Shown one piece after another: positions 53,028 to 63,298 of a stretch of 64,000 nt of DNA. The stretch's first letter is position 1. Every line of letters begins with the position of its first letter. The translations under genes and the position numbers were made by a program. Source of the stretch: Mageeibacillus indolicus UPII9-5 (lineage in GTDB: Bacteria; Bacillota; Clostridia; Saccharofermentanales; Fastidiosipilaceae); assembly GCF_000025225.2 (NCBI RefSeq), contig NC_013895.2:992001-1056000 (forward strand), in the 5' to 3' direction. The notes under the pieces are model-generated. The model searched no databases. It had not been told where the DNA came from and saw only the letters and a program-made list of their open reading frames with translations.

Positions 53028-55757
53028 TCAGTTGCAAACAGCTGCCGCAGTAGCCGGTACATCATCCTTCAGTTTGTCTTTGCTCATGGCCTTTCGGCTC
53101 ACGCACACGGCAGAACACCAGTTGCCTACAGCCTTCCCGTCTGCATACGAACCTTTGAGCAAAGGCAGTACCGGGGAAAAGTAGTGCGAACCACCACTAT
53201 GATTTTGATCAGCCGCCAAAGCCGCCTTGGCTTCACGGCAAGCCTTTACGACCAAATCAAACATGCCCTTAACATGGTATCGTTCAGCATCGCCGTAACC
53301 CTTTACCAAATCAGTGAATTTGCCGTTAATTATTTCATCAATATTCCGTCCTTCATATTGAGCCAAGGTTGGCAACGCCAACTCATGATAACCCTGATTA
53401 TCCTCATCGACATTTTCAATCGGAGCACCGAACTCATTCTTCTGTCCCTCGCCGACCCGATAAGATTGATCGGAAACGAACAAAATTTTCCCTGATTTAT
53501 CGACATAAACCTGCAAGGCGATTATGTATGGCGGAATGTCCAAAGGAGAAGAAAACTTATCATATACTTGAATCATCTTCGCCTCGGCCAAGGGCCCCTC
53601 TTTTTTCACTAAAGAAGTCCAGTTTTTCAACTCCGTGATAAGGCGATCAACTTTCGCCGGAGCTACGGCTGCATTGTTATAAGTTTCAGCTGCCTTTTCC
53701 AGCTTGGCATGCAAGTTTTTCAAGTCAATCGCATCGGCACCTACGACATTTTTTTCTGCCGCTTGCCCCACCGCGATAGCTTCATCCAGACTTGTCCGGC
53801 CCAAGAAAAAATTGGTATCGGCGACAAACTTAAGAGCTTCAGACTTACTTAAATCACTATTCTTAAGTATTTTTTCACCATCATTCAAAATATCAGAAAA
53901 CTGTTTTTGCGTTGTAGAACGCAGCTTATCCATCGGCAAAGCCTTAACCGCCGCCAAAGCCTTTTTTATCGCAGCCTTGTCGATGTCATCCATCTTCTTA
54001 TACGGATTGACAACGAAGCCATCGCCGGCTGGCAGTTTATCAATATTCTTAGGATTGTTAGCAATAATTACCGTTTTAGGCTTACCGGCAACATCATTAC
54101 TGAACGCATTGAACGTGATTGAGGTAACACTGTCAGGCAGAGTAATTTGCTTAATATCATTGTTGTAGAAGGCTTGCGCTTCAATTTTTTCCAAATTAGG
54201 CGGCAACTGAACAGAAGTAATTTTGTTGTTGCGGAAAGTTTGTACGCCGATTTTTTTGAGTGCCGGCAGCTGACTTAAGTCAAGTTCGTCAGACAGATTG
54301 TTCTCTGCAAAAGCCATTTCGCCTATTTCGGCAAGATTATCAGCTGAAAACATCAGGGTTGAAATATTATTTTTGCGGAAGGCGGAAGTTCCGATTGATT
54401 GCAAATTAGGCAAGGTCAAAATTACGCCTTTGATGGAATTAAGATGAAAGGCTGCCGCTCCGATTTTTTTTAAGCTATCCGGGAATGACAAAAAGTCATC
54501 CGCTATCTGATTGTCCATGAAGGCTCCGGCATCTATTTCCGTCAAATGTTCGCAGTCCTGAAAATCGATAGTAGTTAGATTATTGCATTGAAAAGCATAT
54601 TTACCGATTCTAACTAAACTTTTAGGCAAAGTAACACTGGCAATATCAAACTTGCGGTAACTTTCATTAGCCATGTCAATGTTGCGGAAAGCATTATCGG
54701 CAATTTCAGTAACTGCCGCGCCTGAAGCATCTGCATCAGGTAGTTTCACGTCCTTGTTGCGCTTTATTTTGCGTAGCCCTTGTTTGCTAAAGCCCTTAAT
54801 CACCCCGTGTTCAATGACAAAATCACCTTTTACCCATTTTGATACGTCTAATTCCGGCAAAACTATCTTTTTGTCGTCCTTAGGATTGCAATAAAAATTT
54901 TCGCCATCCGATATTTTCTGGGCAGGACTTGTCGTCCGAATAACGACTTTATCGCCATATTCTTCAACACCTATGTTGCCATTGAATGCATCCGGGGCAA
55001 TCTTCTTGATTGATGTTGGGAAGTTAAGCTGCGTCAAGCTGTTATCTTGAAAGGTGCAATCTTTTATTTCTGTCAGCTTGTTCCCTTTAAAAACAATGTT
55101 TGTCAATTGATTATTCTTAAAAGCTCGCTCGCCCAAAGAGGTAAAGCCGGCGGGAAATTCTAAATCACCCTTCACTTGTGCATCAAAAAAAGCCAAATCG
55201 TCAATTTTGGTCAGCCCAGTTCCCAATGTTAAATTTCCCAGTTTGGTATGCCCAAAAGCATATATTTTGATCCACTGAAGGGAGTTCGGCAGTTTCAGTT
55301 CCGTTAAAGCAGAATTTTCGCGAAAAGCATCCTGCCCAACTTCAGTATATCCTTCCGGAATTTTTACGCCCTGAAGCATGCTGGCGTTAAAGTCTGCACC
55401 TTTTTTCTCAATTTTTACACCGTACTCGTCCAAGCCAAAGCCTTGATCGGTAGACTTTTTCCAGCGCAACATGTAATTATCAATATCAGCGCTTTTATTA
55501 GGTGTAAAAGCAAATGAAGCGATTTTGGTAACCGGCTGATGTTGCTCGTCTTCGCTAGGCAAAGTAACTTGTGGATTATCCTTCAATTTGGTCACGCCGG
55601 CGGGTGAAAAGCCGTACAAAACACCATTTTCAATGACAAAGTCACTGCTCTTCCATTCGTCTTCTTCAGCACTGATTGTTCTAGGCAATCCGCCCACGCT
55701 GAAACAGAACATAAGGCTGGCCGTCAACAGAGCGGTCAGCTCCCTTATCTTTTTCAC
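53028..55757 (-). CDS. Secreted BspA-type leucine-rich repeat protein
   Basis: 909 aa. A signal peptide (KK then hydrophobic 8-24, probable cleavage after TISA at about 30) leads to a duplicated opening module: residues 35-84 (DFVIENGVLYGFSPAG) and 308-357 (DFVIEHGVIKGFSKQG). Each module is followed by LRR_5 repeats with AFxxNxLTxLxxP spacing, about 4-6 in the first block and 8-9 in the second, up to about residue 575. A helical region (590-720) and a C-terminal domain with several Cys close the protein. No LPXTG motif or lipobox is present, so it is probably released or held non-covalently. Such proteins bind host components in mucosal anaerobes (family knowledge). Confidence 0.9.
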   Translation of the reverse strand: MKKIRELTALLTASLMFCFSVGGLPRTISAEEDEWKSSDFVIENGVLYGFSPAGVTKLKDNPQVTLPSEDEQHQPVTKIASFAFTPNKSADIDNYMLRWKKSTDQGFGLDEYGVKIEKKGADFNASMLQGVKIPEGYTEVGQDAFRENSALTELKLPNSLQWIKIYAFGHTKLGNLTLGTGLTKIDDLAFFDAQVKGDLEFPAGFTSLGERAFKNNQLTNIVFKGNKLTEIKDCTFQDNSLTQLNFPTSIKKIAPDAFNGNIGVEEYGDKVVIRTTSPAQKISDGENFYCNPKDDKKIVLPELDVSKWVKGDFVIEHGVIKGFSKQGLRKIKRNKDVKLPDADASGAAVTEIADNAFRNIDMANESYRKFDIASVTLPKSLVRIGKYAFQCNNLTTIDFQDCEHLTEIDAGAFMDNQIADDFLSFPDSLKKIGAAAFHLNSIKGVILTLPNLQSIGTSAFRKNNISTLMFSADNLAEIGEMAFAENNLSDELDLSQLPALKKIGVQTFRNNKITSVQLPPNLEKIEAQAFYNNDIKQITLPDSVTSITFNAFSNDVAGKPKTVIIANNPKNIDKLPAGDGFVVNPYKKMDDIDKAAIKKALAAVKALPMDKLRSTTQKQFSDILNDGEKILKNSDLSKSEALKFVADTNFFLGRTSLDEAIAVGQAAEKNVVGADAIDLKNLHAKLEKAAETYNNAAVAPAKVDRLITELKNWTSLVKKEGPLAEAKMIQVYDKFSSPLDIPPYIIALQVYVDKSGKILFVSDQSYRVGEGQKNEFGAPIENVDEDNQGYHELALPTLAQYEGRNIDEIINGKFTDLVKGYGDAERYHVKGMFDLVVKACREAKAALAADQNHSGGSHYFSPVLPLLKGSYADGKAVGNWCSAVCVSRKAMSKDKLKDDVPATAAAVCN

Positions 55758-55917: not shown

Positions 55918-56928
55918 TTATTGCCGCTGCCGCAATCTTAAAGTTTCAAAGACTGCGATTCCGGTAGCTACTGCAGCATTCAAGCTGTTAAGCACACCCT
56001 GCATCGGGATGCTTACCGTAAAATCGCAATTATCGGCTACCAAGCGGCTTATTCCCTTGCCTTCGTTTCCAACGACCAGAGCAATCGGCCCGGTCATTTT
56101 TTTGTTGTCGAAAATAGACTCACCATCCATGTTCAAGCCGGCAATCCAAACCCCTTTGCCCTTAAGATAGTTCATAGTTTGCACCAAATTGTTGACTCGC
56201 GCGCAAGGCACATGATTAACCGCTCCGGCGGAAGCCTTTGCCGTAACCGCGTCCAAAGTCACTTGACGGTGTTTAGGAAAAACAACTCCATGGACTCCGG
56301 CTGATTCAGCTGTCCGTAAAATTGCGCCAAGATTGTAAGAGTCTTGAATTTCATCGGCAATTATTATAAACGGATCTTCCTGTTTGGCGGCAGCAACTGC
56401 CAAAATTTCATCAATGTCAACGTAGGGGATAACGGCAGCCTGCGCAATAACGCCTTGATGCGCCCCTGTCTGTGACATATTATCTAGTACCGAACGAGGG
56501 ACTTGGTTGACAACGGCCCCGGAAGATATTGCCATATTCACTATTCCGGCCAAAGTAGGCTCCGGACGCCGGCCATCACCCATTGCCTGAACCCAAATTT
56601 TATCTATTTGGCGGCCGGCTCTAAGAGCTTCAATAACTGGGTTCCTTCCTTCTAGCCGATCTTCACGGGTGGCAATTTTTTCAGTATCGGCATGTCCGCC
56701 TGTGTTTTCCCGTTCTCTTGCAACTTTTAATGAGTTGTCATATCTTTTAGCGGTCTTTGTCCGCCTCAGGCCATCATGCCCTTCGTTTGAGGTACCTAAT
56801 AACTCCCTTTTCTGCAGGTTCTGTTGGTTTCCTCGGTTCATACGGCGCCTATCACTTGATCTGCGTCCACTCGCTGAATCAAAGTCACGATCGCCTGAGT
56901 TTTTATGGTTGAAGTTTCGTATTTCCAT
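55918..56928 (-). CDS. rlmB: 23S rRNA (guanosine-2'-O-)-methyltransferase RlmB (SpoU family)
   Basis: 336 aa. The knotted SpoU domain shows DEIQDSYNLGAILRTAESAG, ALVVGNEGKGISRLV and SIPMQGVLNSLNAAVATGIAVFE. The substrate-binding N-domain starts with REDRLEGRNPVIEALRAGR. An unusual 80-residue Arg/Asn/Ser-rich leader precedes it and may be disordered RNA-binding sequence. It overlaps mrnC by 26 nt. Confidence 0.93.
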   Translation of the reverse strand: MEIRNFNHKNSGDRDFDSASGRRSSDRRRMNRGNQQNLQKRELLGTSNEGHDGLRRTKTAKRYDNSLKVARERENTGGHADTEKIATREDRLEGRNPVIEALRAGRQIDKIWVQAMGDGRRPEPTLAGIVNMAISSGAVVNQVPRSVLDNMSQTGAHQGVIAQAAVIPYVDIDEILAVAAAKQEDPFIIIADEIQDSYNLGAILRTAESAGVHGVVFPKHRQVTLDAVTAKASAGAVNHVPCARVNNLVQTMNYLKGKGVWIAGLNMDGESIFDNKKMTGPIALVVGNEGKGISRLVADNCDFTVSIPMQGVLNSLNAAVATGIAVFETLRLRQRQ

Positions 56929-57406
56929 ATTTATTTACCTTCATTTGTAAAATAGCTCGGTCTATTTCAGGTTGCAGCAGCGTATTGAGTCGGCCAAGCT
57001 TGTTTGAAAGATATAGGTAACCGACTAAAGTTTCCAAACCAGTTGCCAACCGATAGTCAACCGGATCAGCGTGTTTGGCCATTGCACCGGGATTGCCGTT
57101 GCGGCCGCGCAAGAAAATCGCCTCTTCATCTAAATCAAGTATATCTTCCTTCTGCCACTGGCGCACCAAAGCAGCCTGAAATGTCGCATTGACCAGCTTC
57201 ACAGTTAAGTGATGCAAATCACCTGATTTCGCAACAATAAATGAAAGCAAACGCCGCCGCACCCAAAGTTCGTAATACGCATCTCCGATATAGGCCAGCG
57301 TCGATACCGGCAACTGCCTTATCTGCTGCATCTCCAGTGTTTGCTGCAATTGTTGGGTTTTCCCCAACTGTTGCAATGACGTTGATTCCAACACAGGATC
57401 ATGCAT
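56903..57406 (-). CDS. mrnC: Mini-ribonuclease 3
   Basis: 167 aa. The RNase III-like catalytic segment STLAYIGDAYYELWVRRRLL carries the essential Asp, and ATGLETLVGYLYLSNKLGRL carries the second acidic site. It lacks a dsRNA-binding domain, as usual. It matures 23S rRNA in Bacillus. It overlaps cysS by 8 nt and rlmB by 26 nt; cysS-mrnC-rlmB is the standard Firmicutes order. Confidence 0.94.
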   Translation of the reverse strand: MHDPVLESTSLQQLGKTQQLQQTLEMQQIRQLPVSTLAYIGDAYYELWVRRRLLSFIVAKSGDLHHLTVKLVNATFQAALVRQWQKEDILDLDEEAIFLRGRNGNPGAMAKHADPVDYRLATGLETLVGYLYLSNKLGRLNTLLQPEIDRAILQMKVNKYGNTKLQP

Positions 57407-58820
57407 GTTGTTTCTCGATACGCGGCCCCTGGGGCGTATCCATCAAAGTATATCCAGCTTCAGTTATCTGCTTACGCAATTCATCGGCTAGCGTGAAATT
57501 TTTAGCCTTTTTAGCTTGGGTCCGTGCTTCCACTAAAGCTAAAATTTCTGTTGGAATCGCCTCTTCGCACTGCCAACGTAAACCCAAGACATCACCCAAT
57601 TCATCAAAGAAGTCGAGGACGGCCTGACAGTCCGCCGCCGACGGCGAAGACGTAATCAAAGTGTTGACCTCCCGCACCCACGAAAAAATGGCCGCCAAAG
57701 CATCCGGCGTGTTAAGATCATCGTCCATAGCTGCAATAAAAGCAGCTCGAGCCGTGTCAATTGACTTACGAACAGACTCGGCAGCAGCAGCGGCTTTATC
57801 AGCTGATTCTGCCGATTCGGCCTTGCTCTTAAGTTTAAACTGCACCGCGCTATAGCAATTGCGTAATCTTGTCAAACCAGTCTGTGCCGCCTGCAACAAT
57901 TCATCACTGAAATTAATTGGACTGCGATAGTGACCTGTCAGCAAGAAAAACCTTATAACATCATAAGGAAAATGCTTTACCACATCTCTGACCGTGAAGA
58001 AATTACCCAAGGATTTGCTCATTTTTTCATTATTGACATTGATAAAACCATTGTGAAGCCAATAGTGGGCGAGCTGTTTACCGGTTGCGCACTCACTTTG
58101 AGCGATTTCATTTTCATGATGCGGGAAAATCAAATCTTTCCCCCCGCTATGAATATCTATGGTCGGCCCCAAATATCGGTTAATCATGGATGAGCACTCA
58201 ATGTGCCAGCCGGGACGGCCCTCGCCCCAAGGTGAAGGCCAAGCCGGTTCACCTGGTTTCTTAAACTTCCAGACAGCAAAATCTGCCGGGTCATGTTTGT
58301 TTTCGCCCGTATTGACCCGCTCACTGGCTCCCGCTTCCAGCTCATCCAAATGGAAATGGGATAATTTACCATAATCTGGGAAAGACCTTGTCGAAAAATA
58401 TACTCCGTCCGTACTTACGTAAGCATGGCCGCCAGCAACCAATTTACCGACCTGTTCTATTATCGCATCAATTGACTCTGTTGCCCGAGGCTGAATAGTG
58501 GCCCGCTTGATGCCCAAACCGTCAGCATCTTTAAAATATTCGGCAATGTATTTATCCGCCAACTCTCGTAGGGTAACGCCTTCCTCATTGGCACGTCTGA
58601 TCATTTTGTCATCTATATCGGTGAAATTTTGGACAAAAGTAACTTTGTAACCACGGTATTCCAAATATCGGCGCAACAAATCAAATACCACAAACGGCCG
58701 GGCGTTACCGAGGTGAAAATAATTATAAACAGTCGGGCCGCAACTGTACATTTTAACTTTACCCGGTTCAAGCGGAATAAACTCACGTTTCTGATTAGTT
58801 AAAGAGTCAAATAATTGCAT
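57399..58820 (-). CDS. cysS: Cysteinyl-tRNA synthetase (class I)
   Basis: 473 aa. The zinc-binding YSCGPTVY and the HIGH-type HLGN lie near the N-terminus, and KMSKSLGN near residue 265. FPHHENEIAQSE supplies further zinc ligands. The ATG at 58820 has GGGAG 6 nt before it; a TTG five codons upstream would include that site and is rejected. No T-box leader precedes it; instead a 6S-like RNA gene ends about 70 nt upstream. Confidence 0.96.
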   Translation of the reverse strand: MQLFDSLTNQKREFIPLEPGKVKMYSCGPTVYNYFHLGNARPFVVFDLLRRYLEYRGYKVTFVQNFTDIDDKMIRRANEEGVTLRELADKYIAEYFKDADGLGIKRATIQPRATESIDAIIEQVGKLVAGGHAYVSTDGVYFSTRSFPDYGKLSHFHLDELEAGASERVNTGENKHDPADFAVWKFKKPGEPAWPSPWGEGRPGWHIECSSMINRYLGPTIDIHSGGKDLIFPHHENEIAQSECATGKQLAHYWLHNGFINVNNEKMSKSLGNFFTVRDVVKHFPYDVIRFFLLTGHYRSPINFSDELLQAAQTGLTRLRNCYSAVQFKLKSKAESAESADKAAAAAESVRKSIDTARAAFIAAMDDDLNTPDALAAIFSWVREVNTLITSSPSAADCQAVLDFFDELGDVLGLRWQCEEAIPTEILALVEARTQAKKAKNFTLADELRKQITEAGYTLMDTPQGPRIEKQHA

Positions 58821-58891
58821 TGCTTTCTCCCACAAATTAAATAATTGTATAGTATCTATCCTAAATTTAGTCTTTTAAAGATCAACTATTT

Positions 58892-59067
58892 AAAAATCGC
58901 CCGAGAAGGTGGCGACCTCGCATTGACACCCAGCATATTGCCAGGTGGGTGTCCTGCAGCGGTCTTGGTCCTCCCTAACGTTGAAGGTATGGACGTATTC
59001 CGCAATGACCCGAACTCCCGTTTAAGTCATGAAGGTTCAAATAACAAAGCCGTCACACATCTAAGGC
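58892..59067 (-). ncRNA. ssrS: Candidate 6S RNA (RNA polymerase-binding regulator)
   Basis: About 176 nt. The ends pair: GCCT (59067-59064) with GGGC (58902-58899), then GTG/CAC and TGAC/GTCG around one bulge, as expected for a rod-like RNA. A perfect 8-bp hairpin GACACCCA/TGGGTGTC lies on the 3' side and ATGAC/GTCAT in the middle. The 3' end is GGGCGATTTTT. Segments such as TTTGAACC, TTAAACGGGAGTTC and CACCCACCTGG look like clostridial 6S RNAs as I remember them. Identification is by pattern only. Confidence 0.6.
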
Positions 59068-59073
59068 ATCTTA

Positions 59074-59101
59074 ATTATAGCATATTTGGCAAGTTAAACA
59101 A
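59074..59101 (-). promoter_or_regulatory. Promoter of the 6S-like RNA
   Basis: On the minus strand TTGTTT and a perfect TATAAT are separated by 16 nt. The seventh base after the -10 box is exactly the first base of the predicted closing stem. Confidence 0.65.
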
Positions 59102-59276
59102 AAGGTGATATTGCGGCGAGATGCGCGTCCAATTTATTCTAGATTTTGGGAAAGATTTGGTGAAAGACTTGGTGAAGCCAGAACCTATACCCGCATCGCT
59201 ATCCAAAATCATACCCAATCTGCGGAAGAAGCGCAGCCACCACAGAGGCCAAACGATAATATAACCTGTAATCTTA

Positions 59277-59303
59277 ACCACTTAATGCTATAATTTAGGT
59301 GGT
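59277..59303. promoter_or_regulatory. Inverted repeat flanking a -10 box upstream of the MocR-type gene
   Basis: ACCACTTAA and TTAGGTGGT form an inverted repeat with one mismatch around a 9-nt spacer that contains TATAAT (59289-59294). It lies 114 nt ahead of the regulator start and would suit autoregulation (inference). Confidence 0.45.
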
Positions 59304-59416
59304 AATTTGCTTTGCCGGCCGACAACTGTTCTAATGATACAAATTCGGACTGAAATCGTCTGCATAAGTTCATGGATTTAAACGAACAGTTTGCCAGTAA
59401 CACTGCCTAACTGACG

Positions 59417-60829
59417 ATGCTTATGCCTAAAGAACCTCTTTACCTAAAATTATATAACGAAATCAAAACCGCCATTGTCTCAGGAAATTTGCGCGGCGGT
59501 GAACGTCTGCCTTCAAAACGTTGTCAGGCCGATACTCATAATGTCAGCACAGTTACCGTACAGACTGCTTATGAGCAACTAATCGCCGAAGGGTATATCA
59601 CTTCACGCCCTCGCAGTGGCTACTTTGTTTTGTTACCGGAAGAAAGGGCGCGGCAATTCAGTAACCAGATTATTACGCCGAACCATTTTCCCGTCGATGC
59701 TCCCAACTTCCCACCCGTTCCTCCCGATTTCGTTCCGAGCTGCCCTTCCGCATATATAGATCTAAGCAATCACACCCCCCATACCGATTCTTTTCCATTC
59801 AGCACATGGTCAAAACTGATGCGAGAAATTATCAGCATAAATTACTACCGTCTATTAGAGAGATTGCCCCACAGCGGACTTTTCACCCTCAGGCAGTCAA
59901 TCGCCAAATATTTATTGCGTAATCAAGGGGTTACCGTAAACCCTGAATATATCGTTATCGGGGCTGGAACCGAATACCTATACAGTATCGCGGTTAAATT
60001 GGTAGGAAGACACTCAATTATCGCCTTAGAAAATCCCGGCTATCGCAGATTAGCCAATATTTATGCCGGAGAAAATGTCACTACAACCACAATACCGCTG
60101 GATGGCGAAGGAATTTTGCCGGAATATTTGGCTTTAAGCAAAGCAAACGTTTTACACATATCACCGTCAGGGCAATTTCCAACCGGCTGTTTAATGAGCG
60201 AGCGACGTCGACAAGCCGTCCTGGGGTGGCTTCAAGCCGACCGTAACCGCTATGTGATAGAGGATGACTATGAACGAGAATTTCAGTTCAATAAAAGTCA
60301 TTTACCAGCTCTCAGGCAAATGGATTATAACAACAGAACTATATATATTAATACATTTTCGCAGACAATCTCTCCGTCATTACGTATAAGTTACATGGTT
60401 CTGCCTTCTTCGCTTATTCAAAAATACAATCTTTTGTACAGTAATTATAGCTGCACAGTAACTAGTTTCGAGCAATATACATTGGCAGCGTTTATAGATG
60501 GCGGCTATTTTGAGCGTCATGTAAATCGGCTGCGCCGGCGATACCGCCAATTTTATCAAACTGTCTTGCCTCGCTTGAGCGAATTTGATTATCTTAACCA
60601 ATTGCCTCGTAATATTCCCGGATTAAATTTTCTCTTACCGTTGAAGTCATCTAAAGATGAAACTGAGCTTAAGCGGAATGGCGAAGAACACGGCCTGAAA
60701 CTGAACTTTTTATCAGATTATCTTTTGGCACCGGTAAAAGTTCCACCTAAAGTTGCCGTTTTAAGTTGTCGCAGTTTAAATCTCGCCTCCTTCACTGCAG
60801 GATTGGAGATTTTAAAAGTGATTTTATAA
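59417..60829 (+). CDS. MocR-type regulator (GntR winged helix + aminotransferase-like domain) lacking the PLP lysine
   Basis: 470 aa. Residues 5-72 form a GntR winged helix (PLYLKLYNEIKTAIVSG, then VSTVTVQTAYEQLIAEGYI). From about 110 on is a class I aminotransferase fold with NPGYRRLANIY, FPTG and EDDYEREF. The segment that should hold the PLP-linking lysine reads NTFSQTISPSLR, with Gln 316 (CAG at 60362-60364) in place of Lys. It therefore probably cannot form the usual aldimine. The start codon has no clear ribosome site; ATG 59423 is an alternative. Target genes are unknown. Confidence 0.88.
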   Translation: MLMPKEPLYLKLYNEIKTAIVSGNLRGGERLPSKRCQADTHNVSTVTVQTAYEQLIAEGYITSRPRSGYFVLLPEERARQFSNQIITPNHFPVDAPNFPPVPPDFVPSCPSAYIDLSNHTPHTDSFPFSTWSKLMREIISINYYRLLERLPHSGLFTLRQSIAKYLLRNQGVTVNPEYIVIGAGTEYLYSIAVKLVGRHSIIALENPGYRRLANIYAGENVTTTTIPLDGEGILPEYLALSKANVLHISPSGQFPTGCLMSERRRQAVLGWLQADRNRYVIEDDYEREFQFNKSHLPALRQMDYNNRTIYINTFSQTISPSLRISYMVLPSSLIQKYNLLYSNYSCTVTSFEQYTLAAFIDGGYFERHVNRLRRRYRQFYQTVLPRLSEFDYLNQLPRNIPGLNFLLPLKSSKDETELKRNGEEHGLKLNFLSDYLLAPVKVPPKVAVLSCRSLNLASFTAGLEILKVIL

Positions 60830-61923: not shown

Positions 61924-63129
61924 TTATTTTCGGTTAACAAATTTTTGCAAGTCATCAACCTTGTCAAGTCTTTCCCAAGGGAGATCCAAATCGTCACGGC
62001 CGAAATGTCCGTAAGCCGCTGTCTGCTCATAAATCGGGCGTCGCAAATCAAGCGTACGAATGATTCCGTCCGGCGTAAAATCAAACACCGTTCTTATGGC
62101 ATCAATAATAACTTCTGAATCAACCTTGCCCGTACCAAAAGTTTCGACATTTATCGACACCGGATGCGCCACGCCGATTGCGTAGGCAACCTGAATCTGG
62201 CACTGCTCCGCCAGTCCAGCTGCAACGACATTTTTAGCGGCATAACGCGCCATGTAGGAAGCCGAGCGATCGACTTTGGTCGGATCCTTACCGGAAAAAG
62301 CTCCGCCGCCGTGAGCAGCCGCTCCGCCATAAGTGTCAACAATAATTTTACGTCCGGTTACCCCGGTATCACCATGAGGGCCGCCGATAACAAAACGTCC
62401 AGTAGGATTAATCCATATCTTTGTTTTTGCATCAAACAGTTCTGTTTGCATAACCGGAGTAATGACTTCTGCTAAAATGTCCCTGCGCAAATCGCTCAAC
62501 TTGTAGTCTTCGTCATGTTGAGTGGAAATAACCACGGTATCTATGTGTATCGGCTTATTGCCGTCATATTCTACTGTCACTTGAGCCTTGCCGTCCGGTC
62601 TTATCAGAGGCAGGACCCCGTTACGCCGAACTTCAGTCAATTTTTGGCACAAATGATGGGCTAAAACCAAAGTCAACGGCATGTACTCTTTTGTTTCACT
62701 GCAGGCGTAGCCAAACATCATGCCTTGATCTCCCGCACCGTTGATGACTGCTTCGTCTGAGCCGTCCTTGTGCTCAGCGGCCAAATTAACACCCATGGCT
62801 ATATCGCCAGACTGCTCGTCGATCGCGGTAAGAACGGCGCAATTGTCCGCATCAAATCCGTATTTGCCGCGCGTGTAGCCGATTCTCCTGACAGTGTTAC
62901 GAACAATTTTAGGTATGTCGACGTAACAATTGGTAGAGATTTCGCCAGCCACCACTACCATTCCCGTGGTGGTCATCGTTTCACAAGCCACTCTAGCCAT
63001 GCTGTCTTTGGCTAATATGGCATCCAAAACAGCATCAGATATTTGATCGCATATTTTGTCAGGATGCCCCTCAGTCACTGATTCTGAAGAAAACAGATAC
63101 TTGCTGCGTTCATTTAAATATTCTTTCAT
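61924..63129 (-). CDS. metK: S-adenosylmethionine synthetase
   Basis: 401 aa. It makes SAM from methionine and [39 protein letters not shown] and [16 protein letters not shown] are the three hallmark motifs. The ATG at 63129 has GGAGG 7 nt upstream; longer frames run into the riboswitch and are rejected. Expression is controlled by the SAM-I riboswitch just upstream. Confidence 0.97.
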
Positions 63130-63141
63130 CGAAAAACCTCC

Positions 63142-63283
63142 AAAAAAAATCTCTTTCGAGTCGAACCCGAAAGAGATATATAAACTCATCTTCCAGGTAA
63201 AACTTTACCTGCCGGATTTAGCACCGTGCTTACGCCGGTTGCCGGATTTCATTGGGCCGGGTCCCTCCATCACTCTTGATAAG
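63142..63283 (-). promoter_or_regulatory. SAM-I (S-box) riboswitch with terminator, upstream of metK
   Basis: The minus strand shows the S-box landmarks in order: CTTATCAAGAG, GGAGGGACCCGGCCC, ATGAAATCCGGCAACC, GGTGCTAAATCC and GGAAGATGAG (aptamer about 63185-63283). A 10-bp terminator stem ATCTCTTTCG/CGAAAGAGAT (63149-63177) follows, with a T8 run that abuts the metK ribosome site GGAGG. SAM binding should turn metK off by termination. Confidence 0.96.
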
Positions 63284-63298
63284 GATTAAATTCGGTTA

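Follow-up and report, generated by a model that had tools for sequence, protein, structure and literature searches.

A predicted 6S RNA gene immediately 5′ of cysS in Mageeibacillus indolicus UPII9-5 and its gene neighborhood in the order Saccharofermentanales

Gene organization of the locus

The DNA under study, hereafter the window, is a stretch of 64,000 nucleotides of Mageeibacillus indolicus UPII9-5 (contig NC_013895.2, positions 992,001 to 1,056,000), a member of the order Saccharofermentanales in the class Clostridia. The predicted 6S RNA gene is located on its minus strand at 58892..59067 and measures exactly 176 nt from the inferred +1 to the end of a T run, which is the length given in the original prediction, where no strand had been named. 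The next gene on the same strand is cysS (57399..58820, −), encoding cysteinyl-tRNA synthetase (TIGR00435, 555.8 bits), so that the proposed position directly upstream of cysS is correct. The ATG of cysS at 58820 is preceded by GGGAG, and the start codon lies 73 nt past the 6S match. The gene row continues with a gene for an RNase III-domain protein (56903..57406, −; PF00636), which we take to be MrnC-like, and a gene for an RlmB-type rRNA methyltransferase (55918..56928, −; TIGR00186, above cut-off).

Other genes in the surroundings include one for a PdxR-type MocR regulator (59417-60829, +; NF052282, above cut-off), which is divergent from the 6S promoter and has no relative among the neighboring open reading frames sampled at 36 loci of the order. 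A large BspA-type leucine-rich-repeat protein is encoded at 53028-55757 (−; PF13306) and scores 820.7 bits against a HupY/LrrG adhesin model, under the cut-off of 1250. A SAM riboswitch (63183-63285, −; RF00162, 78.5 bits) is located just 5′ of metK (61924-63189; TIGR01034).

Homology to 6S RNA

In a search with 4227 Rfam families and open thresholds, the 6S RNA family RF00013 matched positions 59071-58894 over model positions 1-187 with 34.4 bits (E 3.3e-5), and it was the sole Rfam match with E < 1 in the segment 58600-59400. The search with the Rfam 6S model that had been proposed as a check thus returned a full-length match, although its 34.4 bits are below the gathering score of 46.4 bits, which is an annotation threshold and not a biological trait. 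At gathering thresholds, only a SAM riboswitch and a single tRNA were found in the whole window. The genome of 1,809,746 bases contains a single RF00013 match at E 1e-3 or better. Among 148 sampled genomes of the class, RF00013 matched 124, and 13 had two or three matches (G068, G078, G086, G096, G098, G105, G110, G111, G123, G163, G175, G193, and G198).

Within the order, RF00013 was found at E 1e-3 or better in 46 of 58 genomes (own included), 26 of which were above the gathering score. A covariance model named R1 was built from 34 relatives of the order, including 23 of these 26, with the window left out. The held-out window sequence was matched by R1 end to end with 141.6 bits (E 4.8e-38). 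Matches to R1 were obtained in 57 of the 58 genomes and in 23 of the 24 that had not been used in building the model; only G046 was missed. A further R1 match of 23.4 bits over 88 bases (E 0.0026) was considered as a second 6S copy but is probably a chance match, because it covers half the length and RF00013 has no match there at E 1e-3.

Secondary structure and covariation

The consensus structure of the 34 aligned relatives, with the window excluded, comprises 38 pairs and consists of a closing stem, a large central bubble, and an apical stem, a layout supported by covariation. In the M. indolicus copy, the apical (internal) stem extends from a GGGAG arm to a CACCC arm (58947..59019, −), and the 3′ side of the central bubble contains a hairpin of the form ACCTGGC...GCTGGGT (58928..58946, −), which was recognized from the consensus structure, the alignment of copies outside the model, and the sequence. 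The window sequence forms 35 of the 38 consensus pairs. The hairpin-rich interior described originally is present, and the fold of the segment reached −63 kcal/mol compared with a mean of −51.4 for shuffled sequences (z −2.87; 3 of 200 shuffles as good).

Covariance support, the absence of which had been named as a way to refute the prediction, is present: 23 of the 38 pairs show two-sided changes. Across the 34 rows, 94.3% of the cells were paired and 138 cells had a two-sided change, with no measure matched in 500 shuffles, and pairing fell to 37-46% when partners were slid by 1 to 3 columns; both controls are biased in its favor, since related rows can beat shuffles even with no structure and the structure was derived from the same rows. 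The 25 matches outside R1 (24 distinct rows) were 91.4% paired and had two-sided changes in 29 of the 38 pairs, in an alignment that was fitted to R1 and hence leans toward its structure. Some pairs failed frequently in these rows: two adjacent to the apical loop (15 and 14 of 24 rows) and the outermost pair of the closing stem (12 of 24).

Promoter and 3′ end of the 6S RNA

Read 5′ to 3′ on the minus strand, the region ahead of the RNA consists of TTGTTT, 16 nt, TATAAT, TAAGAT, and then G59067. The first hexamer is the predicted −35 element (59096..59101, −) and the second the predicted −10 element (59074..59079, −), both of them also covered by the promoter comparison across copies. G59067 is located 7 nt past the −10 element and is the first base of the consensus closing stem, as the original prediction had it for the +1. 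A −35/−10 pair with at least 8 of 12 matches was found at the expected place in 43 of 46 copies (window included) and one with at least 9 of 12 in 39; single-base shuffles gave means of 5.2 and 1.3 and maxima of 12 and 7, respectively, and the tally is descriptive, being made over related rows. The three copies with fewer than 8 matches were those of G053 (7), G008 (4), and G047 (none).

The 6S promoter was not listed by a pattern scan, because its −35 element matches at only three of six positions. The scan found two promoters versus 2.1 expected by chance, one inside cysS and one further upstream on the same strand as the 6S gene (59164-59136, TTCACC-17-TAGAAT, 9 of 12 matches). The 3′ terminus has the GGGC-GATTTTT end that had been pointed out, with the last T at 58892 and the T run 3′ of the closing stem (58892..58896, −) forming the presumed terminator tail. 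The 6S 3′ end was not listed by the terminator pattern scan, and a local terminator hairpin was rejected, as the local fold was no better than shuffles (z 0.07). Termination would therefore need the long-range closing stem together with the T run, and this is the mode of termination we infer. Around the 6S 3′ end, a mean of 7.0 T per 14 nt was obtained in 36 genomes of the order as a raw count.

Template of the product RNA

The start of the product RNA (pRNA) was placed on the base that faces the known E. coli start in the RF00013 alignment. For the window copy, the predicted pRNA is 5′-GAAGGUUCAAAUAA (59031..59044, +), with the 5′ side of the central bubble as template and C59031 as the start. 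The template start base is C in all 46 copies (window included), and an A lies beside it in 45. The pattern of GG at positions 4/5 and AA at 9/10 is present in 46 of 46 copies, a figure that means the pattern was found and is no independent tally, because the search itself demanded TTG, CC, and C, each separated from the next by two free letters. According to a published description, the pRNAs of reference species and of lactic acid bacteria carry GG at positions 5/6 or 4/5 and have an A beside the start, and AA at 9/10 is given for lactic acid bacteria and B. subtilis 6S-1 (PMC8414754). The 6S-1 pRNA of B. subtilis starts with GUUCGGUC, likewise with a G (PMC8876501). The predicted template of M. 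indolicus thus bears the published hallmarks of 6S RNA.

An alternative is an RNA of the Ms1 type, whose binding partner is the core polymerase and not the holoenzyme. Ms1 is described as a structural relative of 6S RNA (PMC9130861). The description concerns Ms1 from Actinobacteria (PMC9130861), however, and in the segment 58600-59400 RF00013 has no competitor with E < 1 among the Rfam families while the pRNA hallmarks are retained, which makes an Ms1-type RNA scarcely credible here. Full-length covariance homology, a covarying structure, the pRNA hallmarks, and the distribution of the RNA support the 6S-like interpretation, and 59067-58892 (−) is very probably the 6S RNA gene of M. indolicus UPII9-5.

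Comparison with known 6S RNAs

The window copy and known 6S RNAs (RF00013; E. coli SsrS and B. subtilis 6S-1) have in common the length and the rod shape, in which the central bubble lies between a closing stem and an apical stem. They also share a hairpin on the 3′ side of the bubble, a housekeeping-type promoter, and a pRNA template giving GG with the adjacent A. The window copy differs in its divergent sequence, which with 34.4 bits stays under the gathering score, and in its neighbor, cysS. In lactic acid bacteria, 6S usually has rarA on one side and uspA on the other, and rarA is also close to 6S-1 in B. subtilis (PMC8414754). Within the class of the window copy, the 6S RNA of C. acetobutylicum is described as having a conserved structure and strong expression in northern blots (PMC3879012), a likeness based on the published description rather than on sequence. 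No paper on 6S RNA in Mageeibacillus was found in the literature searched.

Conservation of the cysS neighborhood

We looked for cysS in all 57 genomes of the order that R1 matches (own included), in three sets (36 + 13 + 8). In 56 of them, cysS is located downstream on the same strand, either directly or behind cysE; in the exception, G053, the contig ends 107 nt downstream of the 6S match. The gap between the 6S match and the estimated cysS start does not exceed 60 nt in 23 of these 56 genomes and measures 61-310 nt in 11 and 311-1000 nt in 21, with single values accurate to a few codons, because the starts were extrapolated from tblastn and some are off start codons. All 21 loci with a gap of 311-1000 nt carry cysE between 6S and cysS, and the longest gap, 2914 nt, is that of G027. 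Picking of open reading frames missed cysS in G010, G018, G027, G030, and G047, while tblastn found it in 36 of 36 loci. By visual reading, GGAG or AGGA is present in 14 of the 17 short-gap loci of the first 36 genomes. Upstream of the 6S RNA, the neighborhood is variable: in 21 of these 36 genomes the end of a comF match is no more than 200 nt away, in 7 the match is more distant, and in 8, two of which are at contig ends, none was found.

Named cysS loci gave a similar picture: out of 558, the best 80 were taken, and 30 of them had an R1 match, which in every case lay upstream of cysS in the same orientation, at distances of 21 to 783 nt. Three of the 30 were cut by contig ends; the 30 include records of Saccharofermentans sp., Mageeibacillus sp., and Ruminococcaceae, and some may coincide with genomes among the 57. 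Outside the order, no cysS was found nearby at the 50 6S loci checked, drawn from 121 class genomes of other orders with an RF00013 match (the 30 best-scoring with flanks of up to 1.5 kb and 20 hand-chosen with up to 3 kb). The arrangement is conserved in the order and is not class-wide among the loci checked. In the literature consulted on 6S RNA with cysS or cysteinyl-tRNA synthetase, which did not extend to the surveys Wehner 2014 and Barrick 2005, the likeliest to cover contexts of this kind, a passage on cysS in PMC8632094 concerns another motif and not 6S RNA. The arrangement may already have been published.

This conserved position, upstream of cysS in 56 of 57 genomes, would also be expected if the segment were only a 5′ leader or attenuator of cysS. 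Such an explanation is very improbable in view of the full-length 6S homology with its pRNA hallmarks, and of an RNA that RF00013 detects in 124 of the 148 sampled genomes of the class with no cysS nearby at the 50 other-order loci checked. The original prediction had set proof of a mere cysS leader against a 6S RNA; this opposition is too binary, since in many relatives the DNA of the 6S gene probably also forms the 5′ end of the cysS transcription unit.

Leaders of cysE-cysS outside the 6S loci

A position ahead of an aminoacyl-tRNA synthetase gene is also that of a T-box leader, and a divergent T-box was considered. In keeping with the original observation that a T-box sequence is missing, the Rfam covariance search of 58600-59400 brought up none at E up to 10, and none was seen in the 6S-cysS loci of 10 relatives at E up to 0.05. 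A T-box or another cis-regulator at the 6S-cysS site was rejected, as nothing besides 6S RNA was found there in the window segment, in 20 loci at gathering scores, or in 10 at E up to 0.05. A SAM riboswitch was seen in locus L139, away from the 6S-cysS site. Among the best 80 named cysS loci, 50 lack an R1 match; 20 of these were scanned and three carry a T-box, in each case ahead of cysE-cysS (L102, 1688-1903; L070, 1953-2170; L044, 1527-1811), and further T-boxes may exist, because the T-box cut-off is high (93 bits). The T-box leader (RF00230) thus takes the same place ahead of cysE-cysS in three other loci but is a different RNA family without a match in the window segment, and the probability of a divergent T-box in M. 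indolicus is practically negligible.

Proposed function and read-through into cysS

By analogy with known 6S biology, RNA polymerase with the primary sigma factor would start at about G59067 and yield an RNA of roughly 176 nt, folded into a rod that comprises a closing stem, an open central bubble, and an apical stem. This RNA would mimic an open promoter and occupy the polymerase as the cell slows. Copying of a short pRNA opposite C59031, a product that would begin 5′-GAAGGUUCAA, would then release the 6S RNA. Trapping of polymerase and pRNA-driven release are described for 6S RNAs (PMC8876501; PMC8414754), from which both are taken over for the window copy.

A fraction of the transcripts may continue into (cysE and) cysS, with 6S RNA as the first cistron of the unit. 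We infer such read-through because 23 of the 56 genomes leave no room for a promoter in the gap, and for the order as a whole we lean slightly toward it. In the M. indolicus genome itself, it is less probable than that, because the 73 nt between 6S and cysS leave room for a cysS promoter. Gene order may also persist through descent without co-transcription.

The opposite reading, a strictly monocistronic 6S RNA with a separate cysS promoter in the 73-nt gap, draws on this very distance but is rather unlikely. The pattern scan found no promoter in the gap, and a separate cysS promoter cannot be general, because the distance to the estimated cysS start is so short in those 23 genomes. A shared operon of 6S RNA and the tRNA-Lys behind it has moreover been suggested for several Streptococcaceae (PMC8414754).

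A unit of this kind exists in E. coli, where ssrS-ygfA is a dual transcription unit that begins with 6S RNA and continues into a protein gene. The order would likewise have 6S RNA as the first part of a unit with a protein gene, which is cysS or cysE-cysS instead of ygfA. The E. coli unit is reportedly Rho-dependent, whereas the 6S 3′ end in the window is T-rich. More tentatively, and with some doubt on our part, the 6S unit of this order may have moved into the leader position of cysE-cysS that a T-box occupies in other lineages, so that the supply of the synthetase would be tied via read-through to the growth-phase control of polymerase and not to uncharged tRNA-Cys.

The 6S RNA as such is ordinary; the distinctive part is the order-wide 6S-(cysE)-cysS arrangement. 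The analysis adds one 6S RNA that default annotation misses, and an order model that has matches in 57 of 58 genomes, compared with 26 above the cut-off of RF00013. If read-through takes place, one promoter would serve both an essential tRNA synthetase and an RNA that regulates RNA polymerase globally, as a natural case of such a coupling.
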